The position numbers and the translations under genes were made by a program. Below the pieces are notes generated by a model. The model had not been told where the DNA came from. It made no database searches and worked only from the letters and a program-made list of their open reading frames with translations. Positions 7,367-62,369 of a stretch of DNA of 64,000 bases are shown in pieces; position 1 is the stretch's first letter; each line of letters starts with the position of its first letter. Origin of the DNA: Liolophura sinensis (lineage: Eukaryota; Mollusca; Polyplacophora; Chitonida; Chitonidae); assembly GCF_032854445.1 (NCBI RefSeq), contig NC_088301.1, positions 13,450,281-13,514,280 of the forward strand, written 5' to 3'.

Positions 7367-7544
7367 ATTAACAACGAGGTCATCTCTGTGGTAAGCAGTT
7401 TTGACATTTAGCCTCCGCACAGCAATTGTAATTCTTGTGTATAAACCTATATACGTAACGTAAACGGATATAGTACAATTCTACAATTCTTTTCAACATA
7501 TGTGGGAATAAAAATTTATTTTTCATATATGTGAAGAAGTTTAC

Positions 7545-8155
7545 ACACATATATAATTAAAATAAGGCTTTTACACACATGTAAAATTAAAGTGAGACTT
7601 TTACACATATGTACAATTAAACTGAAGCATTTGCACATATGTACAATTAAAATGAGGCTTTCACACATATGTAAAATTAAACTGAGGTTTTTACACATAT
7701 GTACAATTAAACTGAGGCTTTCACACATATGTAAAATTAAACTCAGGCTTTTACACATATGTACAAATAAACTCAGGCTTTTACATATATGTACAAATAA
7801 ACTCAGGCTTTTACATATATGCACAAATAAACTCAGGCTTTTACATATACATACAATCAAACTGAGGCTTTTACACATGTGTACATATAAACTCAGGCTT
7901 TTACAAATATGTACAAATAAACTTAGTCCTTTACACATATGTATCAATAAACTCAGGCTTTTACACATATGTACATATAAACTCAGGCTTTTACATATAT
8001 GTACAAATAAACCCAGGTTTTACACATATGTACAAATAAACATAGGCTTTTACATATATGTACAAATAAACCCAGGTTTTACACATATGTACAAATAAAC
8101 ATAGGCTTTTACATATATGTACAATTAAACTCAGGCTTTTACACACATGTACAAA
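7545..8155. repeat. Minisatellite, 30-bp unit
   Basis: About 20 copies of ACACATATGTACAAATAAAC plus TCAGGCTTTT. One-base deletions in later units shift the otherwise open frames on both strands. Confidence 0.92.
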
Positions 8156-15159: not shown

Positions 15160-18080
15160 ATTGTCGGGTGAAAATTATATTCAAGGTGGAAACAATATTC
15201 CTAGCTGAATGGGTGGAAACAGTATTCCTAGCTGGGTTGACACAGTATTTCTAGCTGAGTGGACACAGTATTTCTAACTGGGTGGAAACAATATTCATAT
15301 CCGGTGGAAACAGTGTTCCTAACTGAATGGACACAGTATTTCTAGCTGGGAGTACACTGGCCCCGATGACTCAGTTGGTAGAACGTCCGCTTCGGGAGCA
15401 GTAGATTAAGGGTCAATCCTGGGTCGGTTCAGTATTGAGGGGATAGTGCAACTGGTTGACCCGTATCAGTATAATGGCGTGGGTGGGGCGGCTTAATTGT
15501 CTTCGATAAGTCGTCTCAGTGGAGCAGTACTAGATGAAAAAAGGTGCGGAAATCCGTCCTGCAATAAGGAGACACATTACACGTACCTACACTCTAAAGA
15601 CTCCTTCGACGTCAAATGACTGAAAAACTGTTAAGTACGACGTAAAATTCTAATTGCTCACTTACTCACTCTGTCTGGTCGCACACAGTATTCCTACGAA
15701 CAATATCCTTAGCTGTATGGGTGGAAACAGTATTAATAGCTGGGTGGAAACAGTATTAATAGCCGAGAGGACATAGTATCCCTACCTGGGTGGAAACAGT
15801 ATTAATAGTCGAGAGGACATAGTATTCCTAGCTGGGTGGAAACAGTATTAATAGCCGACAGGACATAGTATCCCTAACTGGGTGGAAACAGTATTAATAG
15901 CCGAGAGGACATAGTATTCCTGGCTGGTTTGAAACAGTATTAATAGCGGAGAGGACATAGTATCCCTAGTTGGATGGAAACAGTATTAATAGCCGAGAGG
16001 ACATAGTATCCCTAGCTGGGTAGAAAAAGTATTAATAGCCGAGAGGACATAGTATCCCTATCTGGGTGGAAACAGTATTAATAGCCAACAGGACATAGTA
16101 TCCCTAGCTGTGTGGAAACAGTATTAATAGCCGACAGGACATAGTATCCCTACCTGGGTGGAAACAGTATTAATAGCCGAGAGGACATAGTATTCCTAGC
16201 TGGGTGGAAACAGTATTAATAGCCGAGAGGACATAGTATCCCTAGCTGTGTGGAAACAGTATTAATAGCCGACAGGACATAGTATCCCTAGCTGTGTGGA
16301 AACAGTATTAATAGCCGAGAGGACATAGTATTCCTAGCTGTGTGGAAACAGTATTAATAGCCGAGAGGACATAGTATTCCTAGCTGGGTGGAAACAGTAT
16401 TAATAGCCGAGAGGACATAGTATTCCTACCTGGGTGGAAACAGTATTAATAGCCGACAGGACATAGTATTCCTAGCTGGGTGGAAACAGTATTAATAGCC
16501 GAGAGGACATAGTATCCCTAGCTGGGTGGAAACAGTATTAATAGTCGAGAGGACATAGTATTCCTAGCTGGGTGGAAACAGTATTAATAGCCGAGAGGAC
16601 ATAGTATCCCTAACTGGGTGGAAACAGTATTAATAGCCGACAGGACATAGTATCCCTAGCTGTGTGGAAACAGTATTAATAGCCGACAGGACATAGTATC
16701 CCTAGCTGTGTGTAAACAGTATTAATAGCCGAGAGGACATAGTATCCCTAGCTGGGTGGAAACAGTATGAATAGGAAACAGTATTAATAGCCGACAGGAC
16801 ATAGTATTCCTAGCTGGGTGGAAACAGTATTAATAGCCGAGAGGACATAGTATCCCTACCTGGGTGGAAACACTATTAATAGCCGAGAGGACATAGTATC
16901 CCTAGCTGTGTGTAAACAGTATTAATAGCCGAGAGGACATAGTATCCCTAGCTGTGTGGAAACAGTATTAATAGCCGAGAGGACATAGTATCCCTACCTG
17001 GGTGGAAACAGTATTAATAGCCGAGAGGACATAGTATCCCTAGCTGGGTGGAAACAGTATTAATAGCCGAGAGGACATAGTATCCCTAGCTGGGTGGAAA
17101 CAGTATTAATATCTCCGTATTAATAGCCGAGAGGGCATAGTATCCCTGGCTGGGTGGAAACAGAGAGGACATAGTATTCCTAGCTGGTTTGAAACAGTAT
17201 TAATAGCCGACAGGACATAGTATTCCTAGCTGTGTGTAAACAGTATTAATAGCCGAGAGGACATAGTATTCCTAGCTGGGTGGAAACAGTATGAATAGGA
17301 AACAGTATTAATAGCCGACAGGACATAGTATTCCTAGCTGGGTGGAAACAGTATTAATAGCCAACAGGACATAGTATCCCTACCTGGGTGGAAACAGTAT
17401 TAATAGCCGAGAGGACATAGTATTCCTAGCTGGGTGGAAACAGTATTAATAGCGGAGAGGGCATAGTATCCCTGGCTGGGTGGAAACAGTATTAATAGCC
17501 GAGAGGACATAGTATTCCTAGCTGTGTGTAAACAGTATTAACAGCCGAGAGGGCATAGTATTCCTAGCTGGGTGGAAACAGTATTAATAGCCGAGAGGAC
17601 ATAGTATTCCTAGCTGGGTGGAAACAGTATTAATAGCCGAGAGGGCATAGTATTCCTAGCTGGTTTGAAACAGTATTAATAGTCGAGAGGACATAGTATC
17701 CCTAGTTGGATGGAAACAGTATTAATAGCCGAGAGGGCATAGTATCCCTAGCTGGGTAGAAAAAGTATTAATAGCGGAGAGGGCATAGTATCCCTAGCTG
17801 TGTGGAAGCAGTATTAATAGCCGAGAGGACATAGTATTCCTGGCTGGTTTGAAACAGTATTAATAGCGGAGAGGACAAAGTATCCCTAACTGGGTGGAAA
17901 CCGTATTTCTTGCAGGGAAAACACAATGTTCCTGGGTTTGGAACAATATTCCTAGCTGCATGGGCGGAAAATGTATTTATAGCTTGGTGGGCACAGTATA
18001 ACTGGGTGGAAACAATATTATTTTAAGTGGGTGAACATATAATATTTTAATATTTCAAGTGGATGAAAATATTTCCAGTC
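15160..18080. repeat. Satellite array, 46-bp dimer of a 23-bp ancestral unit
   Basis: The core (about 15715-17895) is ~47 copies of GTGGAAACAGTATTAATAGC-CGA joined to GAGGACATAGTATCCCTAGC-TGG. The two 23-base halves resemble each other. The flanks (15160-15357 and 17896-18080) hold irregular 23-bp monomers only. A deletion variant (ATGAATAGGAAAC) occurs at 16767 and 17291, showing a ~524-base segmental duplication. Confidence 0.93.
15358..15674 (+). mobile_element. tRNA-derived SINE, family 2, inserted in satellite
   Basis: A different SINE with a tRNA-like head (GATGACTCAGTTGGTAGAAC; B-box-like GGGTCAATCCT), a GC-rich body (GTGGGTGGGGCGGCTTAATT) and a tail with GTTAAGTACGACGTAAAATT then CTCACTTACTCACT. 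It interrupts the 23/46-bp satellite. Confidence 0.82.
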
Positions 18081-19019
18081 AGGTGGAAACTCCTGTGATA
18101 CAAGAAGCCTTGTTCTTATATGTGAACCTACTGACTGAAGATGACAGAAACCGGCATTGTGAGCAAAATTATTATTATATTACGAGCGTTCCACGGCCCG
18201 AGTATGAAAATATGTATGTTGTAACAACATTTACCCGATCAGCTTTTTTCTATCCTCTTTGGACCCTTTCAGACCAGAACATGACAGCTGGCATCACGTG
18301 AGTACTCACCTGGGTGATAATCATTCCAGCCATGAGTAAATCTTTTTCAACAAGGTGAGAACTGTTTCCAGCCAGGTGAGGAATATATCAGCCCATGTGG
18401 AAACAAAGGAAAAGTTACAAAACATAAATAGCTAAATCTCGCTTGTAAGAATTTTACAATAGGTTTTCACAAAGACCCGCGTGGAAAGCCCTTTAATCAG
18501 GGTACGCTCCACCCTTGCTTCATGCACGAGCTAGTCACTAATCACGGATTTGACGCTTTAAATAGGTCCTCTTGTTGTACACGTGACGTCACGTGATAAT
18601 TGTTTTCTACTAGGTGACAACTGTTTTCTCTGAGGTGACAATTGTTTGTTCACATGCAGGCGATCCCAAGTATTCCCACTCATGCAGGTGAAAATGTTTT
18701 CTTCTAGGGTGAGAACTCCCAACCAGGAAACAAAAACCTTACGTGCCTCATGACAGTTAACGACAAATGAAACGTCCTGAGTACAAAAAACAATCTCATC
18801 TGAACAACGCAGGGACTACGTGCATTTCATCATTGCAGGGCAAACCGTGCAAAAGCTAGGCTGCCGTTGCCATGGATATGCAATATTGGGAATGCAAAGA
18901 GGGACATTTATCAGATCCTGTATTGCATCTGTAAGAAATATATGTACTGCTGTGATTTGGCGTAAACCATAATCTTTCATCCATGTACGACTTTCTTAAT
19001 AAATAACAAGGTCAACTGT
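18081..19019. other. Gene-free stretch beside satellite
   Basis: Scattered AGGTGAGAACTGTTTTC-like motifs suggest decayed satellite monomers up to about 18720. The rest is unremarkable. Confidence 0.45.
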
Positions 19020-19560: not shown

Positions 19561-20425
19561 CTATAACCACACCTCCCCCTCCTTTCATCTCCCTCCTCTC
19601 AACCCCTTGACGATACTTCGCCACTGATGAATATCTACCTTTAACGGACATCAATCGTTAGAGGTAAATGTATACGTAGATACCCACGTTACATATGTAG
19701 GCCTGCGTGCATAAGATCAATAGTCGTGTGGTAACACTGATATCCCTCAATATAGCTACACATATACACTGAATATAATCTCAAACTAATATAAGGTGGA
19801 TCAGCTTGTGCTTTTCATGGAAAGTCTGTCATGTTTGCCATTAATGTTGCCGACATTCCTTTAATATACCGGCGAATTCCATTCATACGATTCTCTGTAC
19901 GAAATTCGATACAGAATACACAGACAAGCGCTGTATACACTTTCTATATTTTGAAAACTCGCAGGCCTATATGTATTTCAAGGAGAAACCTGACTGCAAT
20001 AAAGCAGAGAGTATGACCAGGAAGGAATTGTGTACAATTTTATTGAAGTATCCCTTTGGCCTTCACCAGAATATTTTTCTTCATTAACTTGGAGAAGTCA
20101 TCACCTGCGTCAGACAGTTTCAGATGGGTCGGTCTTTACACCTATGTTAATTCTTTGATGTTGGTTGAAGGCACATGTGCCATCATGCAGCGCAGCCATG
20201 ACAGTTATCTGAACTAGACATACTGATTTGCTTGGGCCGAGGCCGCAGTTTGTTTAAAGGTTTAGTTTTGTATCTTTGAAAAATACATTTCATTTTATTT
20301 ATTTATTTATTTCACTCTGTATTTATTTATTTATTTATTTAGCCTCTTTATATAGCCTTATACTCTTTAAATTGATCCATCCAATGTATTCACTTTAACC
20401 CTATGATTAATTACCATTGTGAAGC

Positions 20426-20889: not shown

Positions 20890-21770
20890 CACTGTATAGT
20901 GACCCACGCGTTGTACACTGACCCACACGTTGTATAGCGCCTCACTCGTTGTACAGTGACCCATACGCTGCACTGCGCCTCACACGTTGTACATTGACCC
21001 ACACGCTGCACAGCGCCTCACACAATGTACAGTGACCCACACGTTGTACACTGACCCACACGCGTAGTGACCCATTCGTTGTACAGTGACCCACATGTTG
21101 TACAGTGACTCACACGCTGTACAATGACCCACGCGTTGTACAGCGCCTCACACTTTGTACAGTGACTCACACTTTGTACAGTGATCCACACGTTGTACAG
21201 TGACCCACACGTTGTACAGCGCCTCACACTATATACAGTGACTCACACGTTGTACAGTGACCCACACGTTGTACAGCGCCTCTCACTATATACAGTGACC
21301 CACACGTTGTACAGCGCCTCACACTATATACAGTGACTCACACGTTGTATAGCGCCCTACGCTTTGTACCGTGACACACGAGTTGTACGCACTGTGCACA
21401 GCGTCTCACCCGTTGTACAGCGCCTCACACTTTGTACAATGATCCACACGTTGTACAGTGCCTCACACTATATACAGTGATCAACGCGTTGTACAGCGCC
21501 TGACATTTTGTACAGTGATCCATGTGTTGTATAATCGTTGTACAGTGACACACACTTTGTACAGCGCCTCACACGTTGTACACTGACCCAGGCGTTGTAC
21601 AGTGACCCACACGTTGTACAGCGCCTCACACTTGTACAGTGACCCACGCGTTGTACAGCGTTTCACATGTTGGACAGCCACTCACAGGTTGCACAGCCAC
21701 TCACACTTTGTAAAGCGCCTCACACTTTGTAATGGTGACCCACACGTAATATTGGCTCACACATTACTTT
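20890..21770. repeat. Minisatellite, 19-bp unit
   Basis: About 45 copies of ACACGTTGTACAGTGACCC or its variant with GCGCCTC. The two variants alternate irregularly. Confidence 0.92.
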
Positions 21771-25718: not shown

Positions 25719-26711
25719 TACACTAATGTTAGACAGCGTCTCCTAACCAGCTGACTGTCAGCTAAGCCGCACTTGCGTAGTGAGAGTGACGGAATCTAAA
25801 ATTTCCTTGTCTCAGGCCGGTTCCACTATAAAATAATATGGCTCTGATACCAGCCTGCTATACAAGCAAACCATGTAATATAACAATAATTATGGGAATG
25901 GTCTATGATTTCCAGCGTCTGTCTTCTTAGTACAATGGCTGTGTAACTCATAGCATGATCATGCATTTTGCGCCCAGTATATATAGCAATTTGCGCTAGA
26001 ACTATCCGCTTTTATGATTCAGCCAAAGCCATATGTAGCTCTGGAGCCAGTCCAACGCTACCACGCAATTAAGCACCTTCATGAACAAGGTCACAAAATA
26101 CTAGAATGTAGCACCTTTGTCCTGGCTGTACGTTGCGGGGCAAGTGTGACTAGGTGATGAGTAATCACTGACGATGCTCTTTGCATGGTTTAATCTACCT
26201 CTTCTTTTCCTTTGTTTTTCTTTCTTTTTTTTTTTTTTTTATATCTCGTCTACATCATACCCTGCCACTACCCTAATTACTTCCGATAAGATTACATTCG
26301 CTCATTAGCTTAGCGTAACTCTCTCAGTTTTTCAGTTGAGTGGTTCTTGATATGAAGGACAGATTGTGCAACATGATGACCGAAATGGACGCCCAGAATT
26401 CGCTGTCAAGCCTTATTTCATGCATGAAGTAGATAAGACAGTTTCGAAAGCCAAGTTTATTGGCACATACGTTATACGTGCACCACGGTACCAAAGACTA
26501 ACGAGTAAGGCGGGCGATTGACCGGCATGGTTACAAATAACAGTATCGATTACGATTTTAGACTTTCTCTTTCTGGTAGTCGGCAGTCGCTTCATGCACT
26601 AAGGCAGCAAAGGACATTTCTGATAACTGTGCGTAGCTTCCCAATGTCAGATGGAGATATTTGCTTGGCCTCTTCTGTTTATGCTGCTATACTGATCAGA
26701 TGTTCCTCAAA

Positions 26712-31700: not shown

Positions 31701-34700
31701 ATTCAAACATATCACCAACCGAAAAGAAAAGCAAAACCGTTTCTGATTTAGGTCAAAATTGAAATATGATGTTAAAGATTATTATTCAGTTTTAGAAATT
31801 AATATTGTGTCCACCTGATCAATGTTATCTGAAGACAAATGTGTTCAAATTTCAACTTCCAGTACCAAAATCTACGCATTTTAAAGAGGCTTAAAATTTT
31901 GACTAAAGTCAGAAATAGTTTTCTTGGAATCAGTCCTAGGAGTAAACTGATTACTCTAGTATTCTATGCCATACTCAATGAGTATTTCGCTGGGAATATG
32001 AACCGCAACGAGAGTCATTGGGGGAGAAAACTTAAGAATATCTGGTGCACATCATCAGCTTTTAGCTATGTAAATAATTTGTCCACATGTGACAGATACT
32101 CTTTCTCTTGCACACTGAAGTGAGTGTGCACATCACTAATTGGCAATGGCAGAAAATCTCCAACTTTATGTTTAGTTGCGTTGACAAGAAACTCAGAAGA
32201 CATGATTACAACGAGACCTATGGATGCACTGACATGCTTATCGGTACATCCCCCTTATATTACATCCTGAAGGGAGGGGGACAGGAGGGGCAGGGTGTGG
32301 GTGTTTATCATGACAAAAGAAGAAAGGAGTGTACTTACATCTAACTCATCCACATCAACCTTCAGGAAGACTAGATCACTGAATTCCCCTTCTGACCATT
32401 CCTGTGTAACAGACAGAATGATACACAGCTGGATGGATGAGTCCAAATATAATACTGTTAAACCTGCCAGGTGTAAAATAGATTGAGGGGGGGGGGGAAT
32501 GTCACAAAATCTGGGAAAACAAGGCACCCTCCTTGTGACTCTTAGCCACTGTACAGCGGCAATGTTGCCAATGTGTGTTCAGCCTTAATTGTTATGTATA
32601 CATGTATGCTTGGGGTTTAATGTCATACTTAACAATTTTTCAGTCAAACAACGGCCAAAGTACTTTATTAATCACTCATTCCCAGTGATTATCACATAGA
32701 TGGTTGTGAAAACTTCAAATTCATGTAAAAAAAAAACAAAAAAACACAAAATGATTATATACAGACCTATGGATGCACTTGCATGTACATGCTGATGGGA
32801 ACATCACATGGGCTCTTTACTCATGATCATGGAGGAAAATTACACACTCTGAGAAATCAAGATATTCTGACCTGAGGAACTTCCACACTTTGGGAACTAC
32901 ATGGTGCACTGTGGGAACTACATGGTGCGCTGTGGGAACTACATGATGCGGCATGGAAACTACATGATGTGCTGTGGAAACTACATGATGTGCTGTGGAA
33001 ACTACATGATGTGCTGTGGAAACTACATGATGCAATGTGGGAACCACATGATGCAGCATGGAAACTACAGGATGCGCTGTGGGAACTACATGATGCAAAG
33101 TGGGAACTACATGATGCAATGTGGGAACTACATGATGCACTGTGGAAACTACATGATGCAATGTGGGAACTACATGATGCGCTGTGGGAACTACATGATG
33201 CGCTGTGGGAACTACATGATGCGCTGTGGAAACTACAGGATGCGCTGTGGAAACTACAGGATGCAGCATGGAAACTACAGGATGCACTGTTTGAACTATA
33301 TGATGTGCTGAGAGAACTACATGATGCGCTGTGGGAACTACATCATGCAATGTGGGAACTACATGATGCAGCATGGAAACTACATGATGCAGCATTGAAA
33401 CTACATGATGCAGCATGGAAACTACATGATGTATTGTGGGAACTACATGATGCATTGTGGGAACTACATGATGCGGCATGAAAACTACAGGATGCCCTTT
33501 GGGTACTACATGATGGATTGTGGGAACTACATGATGCATTGCGGGAACAACATGATGCAGTGCGGGAACTGCATGACGCAGTGTGGGAACTATATGATGC
33601 AGTGTGGGAACTATATGATGCGCTGTGGGAACTAAATGATGCGCTGAGTGAGCTACATGATGCACTGCCTAACTACAGGTAAGCCATGTTTACCTTACCT
33701 TTAGTTTAGGGGCAATGGCTTTACACGGCCCACACCATGTTGCAAAGAAATCCACAACAACCAGCTTGCCTCCAGCCTCCTTCAAAGCGGCATCAAAATC
33801 TCCCTGTAACATATTGTGAAACAATAAGAAAATCTGCTCTAAATTTTATCCGGAAATGTTAGTAGTTTTTTTGTCTGCAGTACATACACACTGTATGGTA
33901 ATTTTAACACTGCTCTTGCATTATTTGTTTGACTCTATATTCAAGAATTTTATATTTCACCACAATAGGGTGGTGGGCAGTTTTGTGGCTGGAGAAAACC
34001 AGAAATTCTTGCGACACAGTTAGGCTTAGATTAGGTAAAGAACATATAAAAGTTTCCAGATCAGGTCACTGTGTCAATTCTGGCTTTTCGGTTACATTCC
34101 GCTGCTGTATCATTAGTAAAGTTAATCGAAGTTGATGTGCATATTGGAAAACGGCACACCTTTTCCTGTGGGCTTCAGAAATACACAGAAGTTGGTATAC
34201 CCTGAGAGAATGTAGTTTGGTGACTGTTAGGTGGACATTGTAATTCTTTGTCTTGACTCCTAAGCCTTGACGGAAGACTGTGTCATTTTGCCGAGAAACT
34301 GGAGCATATTTCAATCAATCATTAGGTTGACGACTTTGTTTGCAAGTTCCTTCAGTATTACAGCGCCAGGAGTAAAAATCCCCATTTTACCAGTCCAGTG
34401 ACAGAGAATATCTGTGAAGCTTTACCTGCAGAGCTTTCTGGAGATTCGGTATACGTCATATTTAAGCATTGGGTATTTGATATCTCTTAAAACTGAGGGC
34501 CAATTCAAAAATAGATGGCAAACACTGGACACAAGCAGTGTGTTTTGATCGCTGTTGGTAATTTCCTTCAAAGATGATTTTCAGAGAGAATTTTAACTTT
34601 TTACTGAAAGTATGATCAGTTATGATAATAATCAAGAAACAAAGTTCATCCATTGCTTTTTTGTCACTGTTTAGTGTTTTTTCGCTAAGTGTTTCACAGC

Positions 34701-36813
34701 CGTCCATAACTGTATAGTTCCTTTTGAAAGTCTGGTGAGGGGAGACAGTTTCAAGTGCCTGTGGGGCAGTACATGTTCCTACATAGCCCCACTGGAAAAT
34801 TTACAACTTGTTTATGTCCTAATGTTTGATATGCACTGAAGTCAACAGATTTTTAATGACGATAAAAGCCTCTTATAACAACAATCCATTTGTTGATACT
34901 TTTCAATCGAGACATCAAATCATGATTCAGACTTCGAACCTCAGGCAAGACACATACACCAGAAAACAGCTGTCAGCATTAAACAGATGGCATTAGGCAA
35001 TAATGTGAACAGCTCCTCCACTGTGAAGAGTACATTGTATGTGAGCCAGATACCCCCTCTTATTCAAAACGTTTAGATCATAAGACTTTCATATTTCCCT
35101 CACTTCTTTAAATGGATATTAGACACCTTTTTCATTTTTTTAAAGTATTTTGTTTATTGTGTGTCACATCAGCAATGTGGGAAAATATGATCAGGAGACT
35201 GAATAGGGCCTGTCCCAGTATTTATGCTTCATGTGGAGTGCAGGTGTAGTGACGCCAGGCCTAATCTGAAAGATGCCTGGATGAACTTTCAGCTTTCGAC
35301 TGGGTAGCATGTGTGACGATACAGATAGTACCTACACGAGTTCAGTAACTGTCGCTTCTGTTTACTCCAGGATGAGTATGTTTGTCATGGCTGGGTCGGG
35401 AACCAGGATAACCACCAGGGCTCGAAATTAGCACTGGTCCGGTGGCTCGAGGCCAGTGGATTTTCTGTCGGATCAGTTGAATTTACAAAGCACTGGCCCA
35501 ATGGGCTAGTAAAATATACTAACACTTTCAGTGATAAGCCTTCCTCTTATTAAGAAATAGGGACGTGAGATTTTTTTTTTTCGTACATTGGCAGCATAAA
35601 TGTCACTGACACAATGGTGGGGTTCTGTTCCACACTGATCGCAGTTTGGTTCACAGAAACACCCAAGCAGTGTACAAACAGTTCTAGTTGACATTATGAA
35701 AAGGAAGTCTGAAGTGCCGAAACCTCCGAGCAATGTATCGGGCGCGTCAGAAAGGTGATCTGACTGGAAGGCAAGTACAGTCGATAAGAAAACAGCCTCT
35801 TCATCGTATGTGTATCGTATCACGTACACACGTCCAGTACAAACTATTAATTTGTATGTCTCTAACAATGTCACAGCAATAAATCAACAACAACAACGTC
35901 GTCGCAATGTGGCGATACTTTGACGGAGCTAAGCCTCCTGAAAAGGAAGCAAAATTAACTGACCATCAATTAAGTAGACTAGTGTAGCACAAATGTTGTG
36001 TGTAGTGACTGTGCATATTTAGTGTGAAAATAAAGGCATCCATTAAGTGACACTTAGTGACTGACCAGTCACCGTATGGTTATCCAATTAAACCTGAATG
36101 ACCAGTAGCTCACTGTCTGCTGTCACAACTGAAGTATTGTGCTTACAGTTACTGCTAATACATTAGAGCTTGCTATGGATTTCTCATTGTTTTAATTAAC
36201 CATAGTAAAACAATTGCTTTGCTGACAAGGAAAAATCAACAACATGTATTACCGGATTTTTCAAGCATTTTTCAAGTGACACATTTTGCCTGGTCAGTCA
36301 TCCAGGACTGTTGCTAAGTATGGTACTAGATAAACCTAGTTGCAATATATGCAACTCATCTAGCTACCCAGTGTTTCTGAATACTTTATATATACTCTGT
36401 GGACTCTCAGTACAACTTTGGCTCATTTTTTGAAGGTATTTACCCATAAATGTCCGCAATGAGGACGACGACGTTTTAAGAAGGCTTTTGAATTGCCACT
36501 CCCTAGATTGAGGAGTTACAGATACTGCTACTACTAGCTAAGCATAACTTTTCGCTCGAAGTCCATAAAAGCGTGGGGCTATTAATATTAATGTCATACT
36601 AGTACATAAGTATATCACAAAATCCATATAAACAGAATTATTCAGCCACTAAAATACATAGTTTAACAATCTACACGTACGCATAATGAACAGTACATAA
36701 AGTTTTCTGGTGTTGTGACGTCAAACTCAAAGGTAAAGCACGTGCGTGACAACCATGTCAGTAAGACGTTCACTGTTGACAGAACTCACCTTCGCTGCAA
36801 TTTGTTTGACCAT
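28719..36813 (-). CDS. TXN: Thioredoxin, five coding exons, complete
   Basis: Coding exons on the minus strand are 36813-36790, 33803-33699, 32401-32339, 31310-31239 and 28775-28719. All introns are GT-AG and every junction falls between codons (phase 0). They join to 106 codons plus TGA, the usual length of an animal cytosolic thioredoxin. The active site WCGPC has its two cysteines at residues 32 and 35, the buried Asp is residue 26 ([14 protein letters not shown]), and the cis-proline is Pro76 in NAMPTF. There is no signal peptide or transit peptide, so a cytosolic/nuclear Trx1 is expected: it reduces protein disulfides and is itself recycled by thioredoxin reductase. The regulatory cysteines of vertebrate Trx1 at 62, 69 and 73 are Glu, Glu and Asn here. 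The start is the only ATG giving the canonical MVKQI N-terminus. A second copy of exon 1 lies upstream at 38271-38294. Introns carry a 21-bp minisatellite, a SINE fragment and a hairpin. The family call is near certain; expression is not shown. Confidence 0.95.
29517..29539. repeat. Poly(A) tract of about 23 bases
   Basis: An uninterrupted A run in thioredoxin intron 4 (poly-T on the transcribed strand), perhaps the relic tail of a retroposed element; no body is recognised. Confidence 0.6.
29668..29742. repeat. Hairpin-forming inverted repeat, thioredoxin intron 4
   Basis: Arms at 29668-29689 and 29720-29742 (AATTTTATCCCACCCAACAT and its inverted copy) pair over 22 bases with one mismatch around a 30-base loop. 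Confidence 0.7.
31239..31310 (-). CDS. TXN: Thioredoxin exon 4 (cis-proline)
   Basis: 24 codons, residues 65-88, reading [20 protein letters not shown] and on. It holds the conserved cis-Pro76 next to the active site. The acceptor is GTTACAG and the donor is GTAAAG. Confidence 0.93.
32339..32401 (-). CDS. TXN: Thioredoxin exon 3
   Basis: 21 codons, residues 44-64, containing the beta-3 strand [12 protein letters not shown]. The acceptor is TACACAG and the donor is GTAAGT. The position of vertebrate Cys62 is Glu. Confidence 0.92.
32608..32652 (-). mobile_element. SINE family 2 tail fragment, minus strand
   Basis: CTTGGGGTTTAATGTCATAC and the following TTTTTCAGTCA match the end of family 2. 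Confidence 0.65.
32885..33675. repeat. Minisatellite, 21-bp unit, thioredoxin intron 2
   Basis: About 37 copies of AACTACATGATGCGCTGTGGG with variants. The 21-base period keeps frames open (a 282-codon minus frame of HHVVPT-type repeats), which is not a gene. It starts about 25 bases from the exon 2 donor. Confidence 0.93.
33699..33803 (-). CDS. TXN: Thioredoxin exon 2 (active site)
   Basis: 35 codons, residues 9-43, starting [13 protein letters not shown] and containing [18 protein letters not shown]. The acceptor is TTACAG and the donor is GTAAGG. The 21-bp minisatellite of intron 2 ends only about 25-30 bases beyond the donor. Confidence 0.95.
33915..34020 (-). mobile_element. SINE family 1 degenerate fragment, minus strand
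   Basis: ATATTCAAGAATTTTATATTTC and a GGTGGGCAGTTTTGTGG-like body, in intron 1 of thioredoxin. Confidence 0.6.
36716..36723. promoter_or_regulatory. CRE-like palindrome TGACGTCA, proximal Trx copy
   Basis: A perfect 8-base cAMP-response/ATF-type palindrome at the start of intron 1. It is conserved in the duplicate. Function is inferred only from consensus. Confidence 0.25.
36790..36813 (-). CDS. TXN: Thioredoxin exon 1 (proximal copy)
   Basis: The exon encodes MVKQIAAK and is followed by the donor GTGAGT. It carries the start codon and sits inside the proximal copy of the 1.14-kb tandem duplication. A CRE-type palindrome TGACGTCA lies 67 bases into intron 1. Confidence 0.9.
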
Positions 36814-38196
36814 GGTGAATAAATCTGAGATAAAGATATGCTTCAAAGGGGAACGTTCAATGCAACTTTCGATGTGCAGCTGGCAACGATCTGTAAGTAC
36901 TAAAATCTAACAGTCACGACAATGACACACATGCAAGTTCGAAGTTCCAACCGGATATGCAAAGTGGTTACTAGCGCCCTCTGATGTCACGAAAACAGCT
37001 TAGTCATTGACATGACTGTGAACTGTCAACGCATGTGGCTCAACCGGTTTGCTTGATTTAAAGTAGAACGTGTGAAAAGAAAGTCAACTATATTCGGGAA
37101 AATACCCAGATGTTTAGAGTGAAAATGACTCACCATTGTTGGGAATGAAGCGCACCTTTAAAATGGATGTTTAATTCATTTAAAATATGAGAGTTGTCAT
37201 TATTTTGGGCCGTTTAAGTGTGCGCCCATCCAGGCACTTTTCTTGCTTGCGACAGCAGTGGACTTGGCTTTGTGAAGCAGAGTTTACAGTTCAACTGCCA
37301 TGTTATTTAGGCAATACATATAGTTCCCCACTCCCAGGGAAAGCCTGTAGATCATCTGGAACTTTCGCTTTCATTTACATAACTAGCTGGCACCACTAAA
37401 TCTTGCAAATTTTACAGAGAGGTCACTGGGGGTAATGGTGATACAGAGAGGTCACTGGGGGTAAAGGTGATACTGGAACTTGCAAGTGAAAACAAACCAA
37501 ATTTAACCCACCCAAGATAGACCTTGAATAAAATTTAAGCATGAATAAAAAAAATTATAGCTTTTACTCGAAGGTTTAGGTAAGAAATTTTTTCTGGAAA
37601 TGTATTCAGAATGTGCCTAACCTTCAAATATGATAGTTTCATTGTCCTGTAGTACTTTTAACTTCAGAAATCAGCATTTCGCCCATTAAGCTCCTTGTTA
37701 TTTATCACCTGTCCTTGCAAGGTACCCAAATGCTCAAAGCTATGAATATAAAAAAAAGCGAACATAGTCAGTCACCCAGAGCTAAGAGCTGTTGCTAAGT
37801 ATGGTACTAGATAAACCTAGTTGCAATATATGCAACTCATCTAGCTACCCAGTGTTTCTGAATACTTCATATATACTCTGTGGACTGTCAGTACAACTTT
37901 GGCTCATTTTTTGAAGGTATTTACCCATAAATGTCCGCAATGAGGACGACGACGTTTTAGGAAGGCTTTTGAACTGCCACTCCCTAGATTGAGGAGTTAC
38001 AGATACTGCTACTACTAGCTAAGCATAACTTTTTGCTCGAAGTCCATAAAAGCGTGGGGCTATTAATATTAATGTCATACTAGTACATAAGTATATCACA
38101 AAATCCATATAAACAGAATTATTCAGCCACTAAAATACATAGTTTAACAATCTACACGTACGCATAATGAACAGTACATAAAGTTTTCTGGCGTTG

Positions 38197-38204
38197 TGAC
38201 GTCA
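38197..38204. promoter_or_regulatory. CRE-like palindrome TGACGTCA, distal Trx copy
   Basis: The duplicate of the 36716 site, unchanged although bases around it differ between copies. Confidence 0.25.
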
Positions 38205-38270
38205 AACTCAAAGGTAAAGCACGTGCGTGACAACCATGTCAGTAAGACGTTCACTGTTGACAGAACTCAC

Positions 38271-38294
38271 CTTCGCTGCAATTTGTTTGACCAT
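38271..38294 (-). CDS. Duplicate thioredoxin exon 1 (alternative first exon or relic)
   Basis: Identical in its 24 coding bases to exon 1 at 36790-36813, with the same GTGAGT donor. If transcribed it could splice to exon 2 at 33803 and yield the same protein from a distal promoter. Whether it is used cannot be told from sequence. Confidence 0.5.
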
Positions 38295-38925
38295 GGTGAA
38301 TAAATCTGAGATAAAGCTACGCTTCAACGGGCAACGTTCAATGCAACTTTCGATGTGCAGCTGGCAACGATCTGTAAGTAATAAAAGCTAACAGTCACGA
38401 CAATAACAAACATGCGAGTTCGAAGTTCCAACCGGATATGCAAAGTGGTTACTAGCGCCCTCTGGTGTCAGGAAAACAGCTTAGTCATTGACATGACTGT
38501 GCATGGTCAACGCATGTGGCTCACCCGGTTTGCTTGATTTAAAGTAAAACGTGTGAAAAGAAAGTCAACTACATTCAGGAAAATACCCAGACGTTTAGAG
38601 TGAAAATGACTCACCATTGTTGGGAAAGGAGCGCACCTTTAAAATGGATGTTTAATTCACTTTAAATATGAGAGTTGTCATTATTTTGGGCCGTTTAAGT
38701 GTGCGCCCATCCAGTCACTTTTCTTGCTTGCGACAGCAGTGGACTTGGCTTTGTGAAGCAGAGTTTACAGTTTAACTGCCATGTTATTTAGGCAATACAT
38801 ATAGTTCCCCACTCCCAGGGAAAGGCTGTAGATCATTTCTAACTTTCGCTTTCATTTACATAACTAGCTGGCACCACTAAACCTCGCAAATTTTACAGAG
38901 AGGTCACTGGGGGTAATGGTGATGA

Positions 38926-40259: not shown

Positions 40260-40645
40260 CCCTATATCATCACAACCTGAGTATAAACCAATCCTGTGTC
40301 ACTGTACACCCTTCCAAATGCGTCAGCGTGACAACAGCCAAATGGGGCTGTGTGCTACAATTAGGCCTTATGCCTAATCACTGTGATATCAGCCTAATAT
40401 GTCACTGTGACACCAGCCCTGTGAGTCAATGTGACACCAGACCTGTGTTACTGTGATACAAGCCCAGTGTGTCACTGTGCTACCTGTCACTGTGATACAC
40501 GTACCAGCCGACAGTGTGTCAGTGTGCTAGCAGCCCAATGTGTCAGTGTGCTAGCAGCCCAATGTGGCACTGTACTACCAGCTCAATTTGGGACAGTGAT
40601 GCAAACCCGATTTGTGACTGTGATAGCAGCCCAATGTGTCAATTA
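40260..40645. repeat. Minisatellite, ~24-bp unit
   Basis: Diverged copies of GTGTCACTGTGACACCAGCC plus CTGT. Confidence 0.8.
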
Positions 40646-41269: not shown

Positions 41270-43075
41270 ACTTGTACGTGTACATGTATAGTGAGTCTTA
41301 AAGGTTTGGGTTTTGTGGGTGTACATGTATGGTGAGTCTTGATGAAGTGAGGTTTGTGGATGTACATGTATAGTGAGCCTTCATGATGTGGGGTTTGTGG
41401 ATGTACATGTACAATTAGCTTTGATGAAGTAGGGTTTGTGTATGTACATGTAGAGTGGGCCTTGATGATGTGGGATTTGTGGGTGTACATGTATAGTGAG
41501 TCTTGATGAAGTAGGGTTTGTGGATGTACATGTACATGTACAGTGAGCTCTGATGAAGTGGGGTTTGTGGATGTACATGTACACTTAGCTTTGATGAAGT
41601 AGGGTTTGTGGATGTACATGTACAGTGAGCCTGGGTGAAGTGGGGTTTGTGGATGTACGTGTATAGTGAGCTTTGATGAAGTGGGGTTTGTGGATGTACA
41701 TGTACAGTGAACTTTGATGAAGTGGGGTTTGTGGATGTACATGTACAGTGAGCTTTGATGAAGTGGGGTTTGTGGATGTACATATACAGTGAGCCTGGAT
41801 GAAGTGGGGTTTGTGAATGTACATGTATAGTGAGCCTTCATGATGTGGGGTTTGTGGGTGTACATGTATGGTGGACCTTGATGTGGGGTTTGTGAATGTA
41901 CATGTATAGTGAGCCTTCATGATGTGGGGTTTGTGGATGTACATGTATAGTGGGCCTTGATGATGTGGGGTTTGTGGGTGTACATGTAGAGTGGGCCTTG
42001 ATGATGTGGGATTTGTGGGTGTACATGTATAGTGAGTCTTGATGAAGTAGGGTTTGTGGATGTACATGTACATGTACAGTGAGCTCTGATGAAGTGGGGT
42101 TTGTGGATGTACATGTACACTTAGCTTTGATGAAGTAGGGTTTGTGGATGTACATGTACAGTGAGCCTGGGTGAAGTGGGGTTTGTGGATGTACGTGTAT
42201 AGTGAGCTTTGATGAAGTGGGGTTTGTGGATGTACATGTACAGTGAACTTTGATGAAGTGGGGTTTGTGGATGTACATGTACAGTGAGCTTTGGTGAAGT
42301 AGGGCTTGTGGATGTATATGTACAGTGAGCCTGGATGAAGTGGGGTTTGTGAATGTACATGTATAGTGAGCCTTCATGATGTGGGGTTTGTGGGTGTACA
42401 TGTATGGTGGACCTTGATGTGGGGTTTGTGAATGTACATGTATAGTGAGCCTTCATGATGTGGGGTTTGTGAGTGTACATGTACAGTGAGCTATGATGAA
42501 GTAGGGTTTGTGGATGTACATGCATAGTGAACTTTGATGAAGTGGGGTTTGTGGATGTACATGTACAGTGAACTTTGATGAAGTGGGGTTTGTGGATGTA
42601 CATGTACAGTGAGCTTTGATGAAGTGGGGTTTGTGGATGTACATGTACAGTGAACTTTGATGAAGTGGGGTTTGTGGATGTACATGCATAGTGAACTTTG
42701 ATGAAGTGGGGTTTGTGGATGTACATGTACAGTGAACTTTGATGAAGTGGGGTTTGTGGATGTACATGTACAGTGAGCTTTGATGAAGTAGGGTTTGTGG
42801 ATGTAGATGCATAGTGAACTTTGATGAAGTGGGGTTTGTGGATGTACATGTACAGTGAACTTTGATGAAGTGGGGTTTGTGGATGTACATGCATAGTGAA
42901 CTTTGATGAAGTGGGGTTTGTGGATGTACATGTACAGTGAACTTTGATGAAGTGGGGTTTGTGGATGTACATGTACAGTGAACTTTGATGAAGTGGGGTT
43001 TGTGGATGTACATGTACAGTGAACTTTGATGAAGTGGGGTTTGTGGATGTACATGTAAAGTGAGCCTTGATGAAT
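41270..43075. repeat. Minisatellite, 41-bp unit with 536-bp higher-order duplication
   Basis: About 43 copies of GTACATGTACAGTGAACTTT then GATGAAGTGGGGTTTGTGGA-T. A block of variants in the left part recurs 536 bases further on; the right third is more homogeneous. Because 41 is not a multiple of three, each open frame cycles through three peptide phases. Confidence 0.93.
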
Positions 43076-45628
43076 GGCTGGGTGGCAACGAAAACAATTA
43101 TCAGTAAAGCTAATAACCACATACATGTACATTATATGCCCTGAAAATCTGAACCAAAAATGCAATAAAATGAGGCAAATAAAGACCTTGAAATACAGGT
43201 ATAAATTTTCTGATGCTGAAACGATTTCTCCATCAGATATCATCCTACTGTACTTCTCAAGCAAACCCCAAAACACCTTTACAACAGCTGTCAGTTAAAA
43301 TGATTAACTTAGTCATGGCTAAAATTTTGGGTCTTTTCACTATACTTGACTTGAAGCATACTAAATACAATATTAATTTTTCTTTCCTTTATCCAGTTAT
43401 TTGTTGTTTTTTTTTTCATTTTTTGCTTCACTAAATAAACACAGATTAGTAGTAATACAAGGTAACAATGCATAACAATGGGAGCAATACTATGATACCA
43501 GTATCAATGTGTAAAACAATAAAACAGACAAATAAGCACTAAGAAATAATCACCAGCTTTCAACAAATCATACATATTACATATTTAAATAATGGCAATC
43601 GATATCTTGCACATTAAAAGCTCTCCAGCACAAAAACAGCTGTTTCGTAAACTTCAGCAGGAGAGTTTTAAGTTTGAACTCTTTCATGCTACTAAAAGTG
43701 AAAAAGCTCTTACCGTATCATGTGGCCTATAAAAATTTTTAGGGAACTATTTTTAAATTACATCTACTATGACAGGGGTGTCTGCCAAGTTTTACAAAAA
43801 GTCATTTACAGTATACAAACGATGGAGAAAACTGGTACATGGTGAGACATGTGATTGGTAAATTGATGTCAACAAAGTTGCCTAAGATTTTTGACATGTC
43901 GAATGATACAGTATTATATTCATTAACTTTAGCGACAAGAGTTCAAACTTGAAACTCTCCTGTTCTGATCACACTTATCTGATGCAGGCAGCTGTTATTA
44001 CTGCATTCCTATTCACCATAAGAGATATACATCCATGTAACAGCCATTATGAATGACTGGCAGAAATGGCTACAGGGCTAAAATTTAACTAAAAGTTCTG
44101 TTCATTATATGACATGTATGGACATGTGTCAAACTGGTACATTTACACACAGGTAACATTAAATCACTCTAATGCCAGTCATCCGTTGCTAACAATGTGT
44201 ACATAAGCAGTTCATCTAGTGCCAAAATCAGGTGTAAAATGAAAAGATTTTAAAAAAAGATTGAATGATTCACAAAACTATAAATAAAACAAAATTTAAC
44301 ATACAACAAAAACCAGAGGACATTTTAAATCATTCACATTTCCAAATCGCACTGTTACTTTGTGTGAATTTTTTTTAACAATGTATGTATATATATATAT
44401 CCCCTTTTTCATGAAATAACCATACACTGCATGTTTATTTATGAATACAAGTCTTCAAATCCACTTTTTAAAATAACAATTAATATAAAATACATTAGGA
44501 TATGCCAGCCTAATAACAAATGTTAACATATAAAAGAGCTAAAGACAAGCACTATTAGACAAACTGTGCCAGAAAAATTTCAGCACATTTTCCTAAAACG
44601 TAAAAAGCCTGGGTGAACCGGGATTTAATTGAGCATATGATAAGAATACTTTTAAAAATTAAATAATGATGATGTGGATTAATTTGGTTGACCATGGTTT
44701 TTATCACATACAGGGACAAATATTACCCAAAGTACAAACCTGCTGTAATTGATGAGCAATTCTTATTTCACATAAATGATGATACAGATGTCCCAGGGTC
44801 ATTTTGGTTCATATAAATAGAAAAATATTAGGTAAATTACAAGCCTGTTGCATTTTAAATTAAATAAAAATACTTCTTATCAAATAGAAAATACATTATG
44901 CTAATCACAATTGTTGTATTTGATTATAAAATTGCCTTTGGTTTGAGACAGTCTGAAGTGGTGTTAGCCAGTATTACTTGTACACACTCTTCTCTACATA
45001 TTCAGTCTTTTTGTAACACATACGTTACTTCCCATTTCAAGGAATTACATCCCTTGACAGTAAGTATCAGTCTTTTATTTCAGTACTAAAAGCATATATG
45101 ACTAAATATTGTTGTTTACTCTATCAGTTTCCCAATGCATAGAAGTATATTGCAATGACATAAAAGTAGCTAGCCTTACAAGAAATTTCACAGGTAGATT
45201 AGTCACATAACCACTGTGGTTGCTTAACTTTCATCACACTGGTACTTCTAAATGCTACCAGCATTGGATAATTGAACGGATACCTACAATCAAGGGAGGT
45301 AAATCCTTGAAAAAGGAAGTAACCCATGTATTATGAAAACAGTCCAATTGTAGTCCTGTAAGCAGTATGTAAACTGATTGAGCCATAATTGCTTGTATTT
45401 AATTATACCGGTACTTACTTATTTCACTCTCTTAACTGCCACACTCAACAATTTTTTCTCTACATGATAATGGTGAAGACAATGGGCAAAGGAAACTGGA
45501 GCACTCAGAGTAAACCACCGCTCCTCGCCAGGTACCGGACAGTGCCCTGAGAGTTTTTTTCTTTTTAATCATGACGGGTGACATGTATGTATGTGCTTAA
45601 AACACTTGGAATGACAATTATTATCCCA
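43076..45628. other. Gene-free AT-rich stretch downstream of PGAP6
   Basis: Holds the 43653-43966 inverted-repeat element, an (AT)n run near 44390 and a degenerate SINE-like patch around 45430-45550 (CACACTCAACAATTTTT, AACCACCGCTCCTCGCCAGG). No coding signal. Confidence 0.5.
43653..43966. mobile_element. MITE-like element with ~70-bp imperfect inverted repeats
   Basis: GGAGAGTTTTAAGTTTGAAC at the left returns inverted as GTTCAAACTTGAAACTCTCC at the right. Similarity extends inward to ATACNGTATCAT-like sequence. A related arm occurs at about 56215-56270. Confidence 0.65.
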
Positions 45629-46280: not shown

Positions 46281-49200
46281 CTGCAACCAAACAAAGAAAA
46301 TAATAAGAAAAAAATAATAACAAGAGGTGGTTAGCAAAAAAACACAATAACCCAGGAGCCTCTCACCAATGCAGTCACTGTGAGTTGAAGTTCAGCTCAT
46401 GCTGGCTTCCTCTCCAGCCATAAGTGGGAAGGTCTTGCAGCAACCTGCAGTCATTTGACGATCTCAATATTTCCTCTTTAATGAGCAGGAGAGGTTGTGC
46501 CTGTCCTTCATCACCCCGTATATCAGATCACAGAGCAGGAGAGAGGTTGTGCCTGTCCTCCATCACCCCGTATATCAGATCACAGAGCAGGAGAGAGGTT
46601 GTGCCTGTCCTCCATCACCCCGTATATTAGATCACAGAGCAGGAGAGAGGTTGTGCCTGTCCTCCATCACCCCGTATATCAGATCACAGAGCAGGAGAGA
46701 GGTTGTGCCTGTCCTCCATCACCCCGTATATCAGATCACAGAGCAGGAGAGAGGTTGTGCCTGTCCTCCATCACCCCGTATATCAGATCACAGAGCAGGA
46801 GAGAGGTTGTGCCAGTCCTCCATCACCCCGTATATCAGATCACAGAGCAGGAGAGAGGTTGTGCCTGTCCTCCATCACCCCGTATATCAGATCACAGAGC
46901 AGGAGAGAGGTTGTGCCTGTCCTCCATCACCCCGTTTATCAGATCACAGAGCAGGAGAGAGGTTGTGCCTGTCCTCCATCACCCCGTATATCAGATCACA
47001 GAGCAGGAGAGAGGTTGTGCCTGTCCTCCATCACCCCGTATATCAGATCACAGAGCAGGAGAGAGGTTGTGCCTGTCCTCCATCACCCCGTATATCAGAT
47101 CACAGACATAGAACTTACCCAGAATATGATGAGCAGGGTCACCCCTGATATGGCCGGGGCCACAAACAGCCAGAGACTGTGCTTGTCCTCCATCACCCCG
47201 TATATCAGACCAATGGCTCCAGCCATCATTAGCGTGGGCAGGTAAGGCTCCTTCAGTTGCAGCATGGCTGTCAATGTCACCCAGAAAGACAGGACTGAAC
47301 CAAAGAAATCACAGGCACTTAACGTGTCGAAACTGGTGATGCAATAGGACAGTACCCTGTTTCCATCACAAGCATGGTAAAACTGTGAGGTAAAAAACAG
47401 AAAGCGTCATCAAGTTATTTCCCATCCACACGGTGAACACATTTCGCGTTGATAATGTAGTTTTCCCCCTATTTATGACTGATATTGTTTTACCTTGACG
47501 AGCTCAATCAAATCATGATTTGCATTCTACATGTACCTGGCAAAGTTTAGTAGCGATTACTAGGCATCTTTGCATATATACTTGCAAAACTTAAATATTT
47601 ATTTATTTGGTTGGTGTTTCATGCTGTATATTTCACCTTTATGCCCATGGTTAGCATTATGGTGGCAGGAAATTGAGGCAGCACCTGGGGAAACCTTTTT
47701 TTTAGTACTCAATATATACGTGTAAATGTACACCTATTACAACTATGATCAATTCTTTGATTTATGGTATAATATCAGAAGTAAACTTTACAATGCTTCC
47801 AAGTGAGAGTCATGGCACTGAGTGCCTGGGTAAACCCTTCAATTCACTTGATTTTCAAAACCAGGTTTCGGAGTGGTAAGCAATCGTGCCATGGACATAC
47901 AGCCAGTTTTGATTTATTTATTTATGTGATTGGTGTTATATGCCATATTCAAGAATATTTCACTTATATGATGATGGCCAGCATTATGGTGAGAGGAAAA
48001 CGGGCTGAGCCCGGGAATAACCCATGACCATCCGCAGGTTCCTGCCAGACCTTCATACGTACAGCCAGAGAAAAACCCATCATGAGCTAGACCCTTTGGC
48101 CACAAAGGCCCACCAGCCAGTTTTGAATATTAAAATACTGCAAAGCTGAGCTGGTCCAGCGCGGCATAATGACTCAGAGGCCTCTCACCAATGCAAAAGC
48201 TGTGTATTCAAGTCTAGCTCATGCTGGTTTCCTCTCTGATCGTATGTGGGAAGGTCTGTCATCATCCTGCAGATCGTTATGGGTTTCTCCCAGGCTTTAC
48301 CCGTTTTCCTCCCACCATAATGCTGACAGCAATCTTTTAAATGAAATATTCTTGAGTGTGTTGTAAAACTCCAGTCTTTTTTTCATTATGTTATTTTGTT
48401 GTTTTTGCTGTTCTTTCTTTAAATATATTTTCCAACTAAGCACAAACCAGCAATAAATGTCGGCTTAGATCCAATTACAAATACATGGACATTACATGGT
48501 AACAACCACCCACTGCTGAAGTTACAACCAAGTTTAAATCTTATGACACTCCTGAAAAAATGAACCCTGAGGTATTAAGAAACTCTCCATTCCTCATAAA
48601 TGAATGAAAAGCAGAAATAAATTAAAAAAAAGAAGCTTTTGAAAACAAAAATCTATAACATACTTACTGATGAGAAAAACATTGTACAAAAGTAGACGAG
48701 GGCTTCAGCGTAGAATCTGCGATAAAGGGCAAGGATAATGGCAGGAAAGAAGAACAGGTTACTGAGGGTCAAGAGGAGGGCCTCCTCTAGCTGAGCCTCG
48801 GTAGACGCAGCCTCTGTACCGTCACTGCAACCATAACCACGCCAACCTGCAACCATCATCCACAAGAAACATTATGTTAACCATCAGTTTTGTAATTTAC
48901 GACAATTATTGTCCACACAGGGTATCAATGATGGAACATTTTATTTGTGTTGTTGTGCATTAGTTTACATGTATGCCAAACCTGACCTCAATATTTTCTG
49001 GACTTCTTGAGATACAACCTTTTGCCTTACGTGGGAAAATCCGTCAGCAACCTGCGGATGGTCGTGGGTTTATTCTTGAGTACGGCGTAAAACACCCGAG
49101 TACAAAACCCGAGCTCAATACAGACTGAACTTTTCTGAGATACCACCTTTAATATTACCATTTATTCTAATACATAAGAAACATAAGTCATGAATTGTGA

Positions 49201-52200: not shown

Positions 52201-55200
52201 AGGTGATATTCTAATCTATGTCTACTCTGGATAATATCACCAATTTCATTGAAATATGATATTGTGTTTGGCCTAAATTTTCGTCCATGAAAAAGTGACT
52301 TATTTGCCCAAATATACCCCTTTTGGGCTGAAATGTTAGGACGACAAATACAGCAGCATAACTGTACAACACAACAATGTCTTAAGAGAAACCCATGGCA
52401 AAAGCCGATATATCTCACCAGCACGATTACGGTCAGCCTGGTCTTGAGAGTTCCACCTATGTCTAACCTGGGCTCCAGCGTGAATGGGATGACGGTGGTC
52501 AGTCCATCATACAGGATCACCTGGGGCGTGATGACCGTGGAGAAGGCCAGCACCCCCAGGACAGACCTGAAGTCCCCATACCCCCGATACCTGTCTAGCT
52601 CAGGTAACACACTACAGTCCTTTGTACTATTGTCCCACTCAGAGGTCACCAGGTATATCTCACCAGAGCACACTGTCATTATTACCACAGAAAAAAAAAA
52701 GAACATCTCAATTACTCACTCAGTGACTGATTTTATTGGTTGACTGATTGATTGATTGCTTGTTTTTGCAGTACCCTAATTCCTCAATCTTTATACAGTG
52801 CAATTTATGCCCACTCTTGATTTTGGAGACAAGACAAACATTGGTTGGATCGGCCAAGTTGAGGGCTTCCCAAAAAGTGTAACTTTATCCGTCTACACAG
52901 TAAAATGCTTTCTGAATGTCCTGGAACAAAAGCAACGCAAACATGCGAAAAGGTTGAGAATTACAGTAGTCAATAATGTTCTACTTGCAACATGACAAGT
53001 CAGTGTCATGGGTTGAAGAAACCAGAGTGTCTGAAGTGAATCAGCAAACTTTGGCAAAGTTGCCAATGAACTTTTTAGCTCCCACATGTGATGCACAGAT
53101 TTAACAATGCGACGGAGATGAACGCATCTACAAGCGTAGGAATACATAGGAGATGGTATTAAAGTGCTACTTCAGTTCCAGGAAAAACCACTGTGGAAAC
53201 ATTAAAAATGATACCGACGATCCCGTATGGAACAATGTTAACGTCACAGTTCAAAAAGATTTAAGGTAAATAACTCTATTTAACCCCTATAAATGAAAAA
53301 TCCTCGAACACAAAATCTTCGGGAGTTACCATAAAATTTTCCTGTTGTCACGTGATAATATTCCTTACGTAACGATGAATCAGGCAGATATGATGTCAAG
53401 TAAGGCCGTGATACTGGAATGACGTCATGCATGTTTGAAAGTGTTCCTGAATGACGTCACACAAGGCAAAACTGGAATCGGCAGAAAACTTTTGTTTCCG
53501 TATTATTCTCCGAAACTACCCACAGTGGTTTTAAAACATCCGATTTTTTGAAGACACAGTAAATCATCTTAAACCATCTTGATTCTTACAATTTAATGCT
53601 GCTTTTAAGACATAAAGGCCTTGACACTGAAGTAACTCTTTAACTACTAACAACAAGCACAGCTATCACAGTATTATATTTTATGTATTTACTGATTTTA
53701 TCCCGACCCATCAAAATCATCAAGACCAAATAAGTACTGCTATTCAGAGAGAGTGCTACAAACCTGTGCTTTCCAAGGTAAACTGTACACTAATATCCTC
53801 ATTCCCATGGTTAGTAAAAGACAGATACTGCCAAGCATCTACATCAGGGGAGGCTACTCTTAGAATACATTCATCATTTGCGGCAGGAGTACAGGTTATC
53901 TCCCCTTGTCTGCGCTCAGCACTTGGCAGAGCAGAGCTCCTGGACATTACAGTTATGTCACAGAGGTAGTTAGAGATTGAAGCCGCAGTCTTAATACCAC
54001 AGCCTATGATGTGAATCTTAAACTCCCATGCAGGCTCATCCAAGAAGAACCTACACAAAACAAAACATAACAACCAGTCATGCTCAACACTGCATATATT
54101 CATATTCAATTACTTGAATATGGGAGCCTTCCAGCTCCGACATTGACATGTTTGTCCAAATGCGCTCTGCATCTTCGCTTTACAAGAAACAAAACTCATC
54201 ACTTAGTAATACTATCCATAACCAATGACTTAACTTCCTGAACTATTTATTTCATTGGATTTCTGGAAACTGAAGTCACTTTTTGAAGGTGTTTTTCACT
54301 CATGTAAATAACTGGCTATGTCAAAATGTGTCTTTGCCCCATAAAACGATGATGTCATGGCACAAAGGGACGTCAACATGATGTTGAAACTTGAAAGTCC
54401 AGTACTTAGTGGTGTTCTGTGTCAAACTCAAGCTCTACGAGTGCAGGAAACTGTGTACAGGCTGTGAAGATAAACTTATAGATAATCAGCTGGCAGGGTG
54501 AAATCTTTAGACGGGACCACGCATTCAGTAAAACTTTGTGGATCTATTTTTAGAAAGAGGAGCCTCTGTAGCCAAGGGAGTTATCTCGCCAGCGCAGAGC
54601 AATGACCCAGGAGCCTCTCGCCAATGCGGTCACTCTGAGGTCAAGTCCAGCTGATGCTGGCTTCCTCTCCAGTCATACATGGAAAGGTCTGGCACCAACC
54701 TGCGGATGGTCGAGGGTTATCCCCCGGGGAAGAGGGCCTACTTTCCTCCCATTATAATGCTGGCCACCGTTGTGTAAGTGAAATATTCCTGAGTACGGGG
54801 TAAAACACCAATCAAATAAATACGTTTAGGAAGTTTTATCATACACGTTATTCTCATTATCAGTTAACCGGGGGCCTCCGTGGCTCAGTCGGTTAAAGCG
54901 CTAGCGCAGCATAATGACCCAGGAGCCTCTTACCAATGCGGTCGATGTGAGTTCAAGTCCAACTCATGCTGGCTTCCTCTCCGGCCGTACGTGAGAAGGT
55001 CTGCCAGCAACCTGCGGATGGTCGTGGGTTTCCCCCCAGGCTCTGCCCGGTTTCCACCCACCATAATGCTGGCCGCCGTCGTATAAGTGAAATATTCTTG
55101 AGTACGCCGTAAAACACCAATCAAAAAAAAAAAAAAAAAAAAAATCAGTTAACCGAGTAATGGAGTTTTATGGAAGTTGACCCAGGATGACAACTACAGC

Positions 55201-61797: not shown

Positions 61798-61893
61798 CAG
61801 TTTTCCTTTTTATTTCCCTTTTTATTTTTTTTTCCATTTTATTTTATTTCCTTTTTCTTTTATTTTCCTTTTTATTTTATTTATCCTTTTATT
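61798..61893. repeat. T-rich low-complexity tract
   Basis: Repeats of CCTTTTTATTTT-type sequence over ~95 bases, between a SINE and the retrotransposon fragment. Confidence 0.75.
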
Positions 61894-62369
61894 TGAATAG
61901 ATAGTTATTCTACCATACTGGACGGGATACACTATGTCCAGGACAAAAGTTGTATCTCACAACCGGGTCTCCATCACTATCACAGCCTCACGAATGCACA
62001 GAACCATCATCTGATGAACCCTAGCCCTCTCCGGGAAAGTCAGGCAAAGATGTACTGACCACATTTCCTTGTGACTCCCGGGAAATGTCACAAAAAAACA
62101 TCTGTACGTGCCAAATTTCTATGAAAGTAAGGTACTTCAGTTTCCTCACTCTCTGTGTCATACTCGGTGAACTTGCGTGGCATGGCATTCTTCGAAGTTT
62201 GTTTCAGTTTTCTCCGAACCTCTTTTACTGCTGCTCCAGAAGAATGCGACATCTTCATGTCGAAGTGAACAGCTTTAGTGGCCCGCCTCCTGGGACAACA
62301 TGGTAATTAACTTCACTTAGTCTTTCTAAGAATTTATAAGGTCCTTTCCACTAGCTGGGTCGCCTGGTT

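Follow-up and report, generated by a model that had tools for sequence, protein, structure and literature searches.

How does a minisatellite arise inside a gene, and can its parent sequence still be recognized? This question is raised by one intron in the window, the stretch of 64,000 nt of DNA that we analyzed, in which a 52-bp unit is repeated in tandem next to a coding exon with which it shares sequence. It is seldom possible to read the origin of a minisatellite in one sequence; here it can be read.

The intron belongs to a gene on the - strand. Exon peptides joined by hand across the array-bearing intron and the neighboring introns scored 167.3 bits against PF12036 (DUF3522), above the curated cut-off of 29.3 bits, and the joined peptide aligned to myomaker structures (8t06, E 8.7e-33). 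The host is therefore predicted to be a DUF3522 gene (PF12036; TMEM8/PGAP6/myomaker group). It may be PGAP6 rather than another TMEM8 relative, which EGF-like and other upstream ORF peptides make plausible. The following features frame the array:

47119..47381, - strand: coding exon that carries the source sequence and encodes part of the DUF3522 domain
46281..47118, - strand: array-bearing intron, 838 bp, with donor GTAAGT at 47118 and acceptor at 46280, predicted from a splice weight matrix and an unbroken DUF3522 match over the hand-joined exon peptides
46343..46448, + strand: tRNA-SINE-like dispersed repeat fragment, also within this intron and sharing 86% identity with the 54910-55015 copy

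At its borders, the intron reads TGG/GTAAGT on the donor side and TTTGGTTGCAG/G on the acceptor side. It is probably older than the array that it contains.

Tandem Repeats Finder placed the array at 46489-47106 (period 52, 11.9 copies, 98% matches, 0% indels), and a split in register gave 12 units with starts at 46481 + 52n, the last at 47053. Both results bear out the initial annotation, which had described twelve near-identical 52-base units in the intron. Eight of the 12 equal the consensus, and three carry one substitution each (units 46585, 46793, and 46897). The leftmost unit deviates from the consensus at its left end and at one more base.

46481..47106, no strand assigned: minisatellite, 12 x 52 bp (46481-47104) plus 2 extra repeat bases; + strand consensus GAGCAGGAGAGAGGTTGTGCCTGTCCTCCATCACCCCGTATATCAGATCACA
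46481..46532, no strand assigned: leftmost edge unit, starting with ATGAGCAGG directly joined to AGAGG, without the extra AG of the inner units and with one private substitution

The near identity of the units suggests that their expansion or homogenization was recent, as had been proposed. The array had also been said to fill the intron up to 13 bases from the donor. This needs adjustment: about 75% of the 838 bp is filled, and 12 intronic bases remain between the last repeat base (47106) and the exon base at 47119.

Reading frames on the + strand over 46459-47245, a stretch that includes the array, are open for 229, 208, and 204 codons. On this strand the consensus unit is free of stop triplets, and past the first bases the sole + strand stop inside the array is a TAG at 46628, which results from the substitution in unit 46585. 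These are chance open frames and not a gene.

A large part of each unit can be aligned to the neighboring exon on the same strand.

47172..47212, - strand: exon piece B, parent of 41 bp per unit, matched at 37/41 positions in 8 units and at 36/41 in 4

The alignment scored 31. No score above 12 arose when the exon stretch was shuffled 300 times by single bases, and the rest of the window, on both strands, yielded no more than 11; blastn gave E 2.4e-10. This 41-bp match, far above the shuffles, supports the earlier proposal that the unit was derived from the exon. The match itself had been given as 32 bases per unit (47178-47209) identical at all but one position. That description fits 8 of the 12 units, while the other 4 have two mismatches, and the match is longer, extending over 47172-47212. 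The 10-residue peptide attributed to the unit and its 10-residue counterpart in the exon were both found in the translations. At four sites that differ from the exon, all 12 units share the identical non-exon base. The 26-base core common to exon and array had no exact match in viral contigs.

One exon segment had been regarded as the seed. We refine this to two exon pieces, the second of which had been overlooked; the 34 bp that separate them are absent from the seed, which also takes in a few intron bases.

47129..47137, - strand: exon piece A (ATGAGCAGG on the + strand), a 9-mer, from which the beginning of the leftmost unit is derived
47138..47171, - strand: exon stretch of 34 bp between pieces A and B, missing from the array

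In the window, ATGAGCAGG occurs in the exon at 47129-47137 and at the start of the leftmost unit, and at no third place on either strand. Joining 47129-47137 to 47172-47212, in exon order and orientation, reproduces the leftmost unit at 45/50 bases without a gap. A suffix match of 9 to the 53-bp exon stretch concerned was found at 11 of 62,941 other window positions (none longer), and 80 of 181,614 draws with randomly placed 53-bp targets reached a suffix match of at least 9; these figures are optimistic and overstate the surprise, since piece A is only 9 bp long and was spotted by eye before testing. The inner units retain GAGCAGG and carry the extra AG; this points to the leftmost unit as the one nearest to the founder. 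The remainder of the unit, TCACAGA, carries on into the 12 intronic bases that separate the array from the exon. The best reading of the founder is a stretch of exon sequence that lost 34 bp, with a few intron bases added.

The direction of the transfer can be judged from the protein family. The exon peptide scored 65.5 bits against PF12036, and 42.5 bits when cut before the source segment, a cut that also removes the rest of the exon. Since the source segment lies within the conserved domain, the exon is the parent of the array. Read in the gene frame, the array has D where the exon has G (at the junction), R for K, and N for S, so that three codons are altered. The array residues R and N together lift the family score from 112.1 to 114.3 bits (1.2 bits each), and D drops it to 109.5 bits; as yardsticks, Q for K gave 111.1 bits and G for S 112.5 bits. 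Because R and N of the array fit the family profile better than K and S of the exon, there is a weak hint that the change in the exon postdates the copying. That the array is a fossil of an earlier coding state of a subsequently altered exon seems unlikely to us, but if this reading were true, such arrays could serve as archives of former coding sequence.

A piece of the exon was probably copied into the neighboring intron and multiplied to a dozen tandem copies. In the order of events that we infer, pieces B and A of the DUF3522 exon, minus the 34 bp between them, would have been copied into the intron immediately 3' of the donor, either through local duplication or through template switching during repair. 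The copy and about 7 intron bases (TCACAGA on the + strand) would then have been tandemly duplicated, plausibly via the 2-bp microhomology GA at both ends (TGA/GCAGG and CACAGA/CATAG). The duplicated unit would have gained AG, and unequal exchange, slippage, or conversion among units may have expanded and homogenized it to 12 units. We consider it likely that the array is an exon-seeded intronic minisatellite without function of its own, similar to the amphioxus repeats known as mirages (see below).

An array that holds 41 exon-like bp in each of its 12 units, at 36 or 37 matches and 12 bases from the exon, might nevertheless act: its units could pair or recombine with the exon, or supply cryptic splice sites or regulatory sequence. 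The initial annotation had envisaged exchange with the exon or its conversion, which is not supported: 12/12 units differ from the exon at the same four sites. Potential splice sites were scored with a simple weight matrix, which is rough: its highest donor score (9.5) went to a site within the next exon, 46233, ahead of the true donor (8.8). On this scale, 13 donor-like sites in the array exceed zero, the best reaching 4.0, exactly the score of the matching exon site 47196, and acceptor-like sites inside the array reach at most -3.5 (true acceptor 12.0). An acceptor-like site just past the left edge of the array (46475), with a pyrimidine tract derived partly from the leftmost unit, scores 6.2 and may have some effect on splicing. 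Because the copied segment has, by this rough score, no strong splice site, splicing is probably left alone. The single-strand fold of the unit is ordinary on both strands (z -0.12 and 0.91), and Rfam at gathering thresholds gave no match in the window. An active array appears extremely unlikely; most likely the array has no function of its own, and it adds nothing new on the function of the host gene.

A same-origin variant of the preferred reading starts from a tandem duplication of the whole exon end together with the donor; the downstream copy would then have been stripped of 34 bp and of its donor, and a core of it alone amplified. This would account for a same-strand copy at the very beginning of the intron, and for the survival of two pieces in exon order. 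However, the far flank of the array is unlike the donor region, to which 90% of 2000 shuffles align as well, and blastn of the missing 34 bp against the rest of the window gave no match longer than 9 bases. We regard this variant as a tentative alternative, to be favored less than the direct copying of the two pieces. The two are compatible, and the confidences placed in them need not sum to one: the copy could descend from a larger duplicated exon that later decayed. The original proposal, a duplication across the donor, is not borne out, as the best donor-like site of the array falls well below the true donor and no likeness to the donor region is seen in the far flank; a duplication that still includes the donor was dropped, the far edge being without a donor copy. 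Finally, the number of units may have been inflated or collapsed in the assembly, eight identical units being hard to assemble from short reads. The private substitutions in three inner units and the differing edge unit speak against such an artefact, which we hold to be very unlikely.

The array is a real, well-formed, and somewhat unusual feature, and its class is already known. Among known repeats, the amphioxus mirages come closest to it. In globin genes of amphioxus, exon-intron boundaries are duplicated in tandem in the manner of minisatellites, and these repeats are named mirages after work on Adh3 (PMC3087553). Mirages are listed for Adh3, for the globins BflGb6 and BflGb9, and for troponin C, with similar repeats in PGBD5 (PMC3087553, PMC3902484); it is PMC3902484 that adds PGBD5 and names troponin C among the mirage genes. 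Mirage units in Adh3 are 10-72 bp long and those of the globins 150-160 bp, the boundaries of mirage clusters are exempt from homogenization, and splice signals are present in many, not all, repeats (PMC3087553). Edge units that deviate from almost uniform inner ones are also reported for mirage clusters.

The amphioxus mirages and the present array have in common short tandem units that are seeded by the adjacent exon, homogenized inside, and divergent at the edge. Here, too, a minisatellite-like head-to-tail repeat (52 bp x 11.9, 98% matches) lies inside a gene, the DUF3522 gene, and its unit holds adjacent exon sequence. Mirage repeats, however, span the exon-intron boundary, whereas the units of the present array do not include it; no donor copy was found in the unit or in the far flank. 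Because the duplicated splice boundary is absent, the array is a mirage-like variant: coding DNA gave rise to it, and the splice site was left behind. If the organism is not an amphioxus, this suggests that mirage-type seeding is not special to cephalochordates.

Two other systems are related more loosely. A 27-bp array in intron 3 of an abalone TSSK1-like gene, an example of an ordinary intronic minisatellite, is likewise intronic and tandem; it is variable in length, as would be expected here, and the available part of the source mentions no exon origin (PMC6905558). The Rogers model of intron gain by internal duplication of proto-splice sites, discussed in PMC3087553, shares with the present array the local duplication of exon sequence beside a splice site. 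It differs in that no new splice site is seen here and in that the intron is probably older than the array. In titles and abstracts, within the terms searched, we found no exon-seeded intronic minisatellite besides those of amphioxus. The statement that few such cases had been described was therefore fair, although a named class, the amphioxus mirages, exists. The event is uncommon, but its kind has been described.

The region is rich in minisatellites, since 19 tandem arrays cover 10,025 bases or 15.7% of the 64,000-nt window, counted from 41 Tandem Repeats Finder rows after overlapping rows had been merged and five short ones excluded (2898-2945, 18593-18647, 20294-20341, 26202-26239, and 44272-44311). 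Four arrays are longer than the exon-seeded one (15718-17907, 20893-21747, 32886-33667, and 41279-43074). Among the 19, only the array at 46481-47106 was found to match an identified coding exon, the exons of the DUF3522 gene being the only ones annotated. At E 0.01, eight of the 19 have no match outside themselves, and six match a neighboring stretch or a sister array. One (40378-40641) matches a diverged stretch beside it, two (7540-8158 and 61808-61894) have weak matches of 22-39 bp, and one (37413-37473) matches the other copy of a local 1.15-kb duplication. These classes were assigned by reading the match table, and a match to an exon outside the DUF3522 gene could have been missed.

Two further repeats of the window deserve mention. 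A tRNA-SINE-like element with an A-rich tail (54860-55155) lies between two copies of TCAGTTAACCG (54860-54870 and 55145-55155), which look like a target-site duplication. The type is, we presume, reminiscent of molluscan SINEs, and the organism may be a mollusc. ARAGORN found no tRNA, a 29-base core of the element had no exact match in genome contigs or viral contigs, and a literature text search with three 16- to 20-base words of this type found no paper. At E 1e-4, a blastn query with 54860-55155 picked up another 26 pieces in the window, some of which measure only 22-50 bp. The direct local duplication of about 1.15 kb comprises 36293-37442 and 37767-38923, which are 96% identical, and its first copy bears an extra 29-bp tandem duplication (37413-37473).
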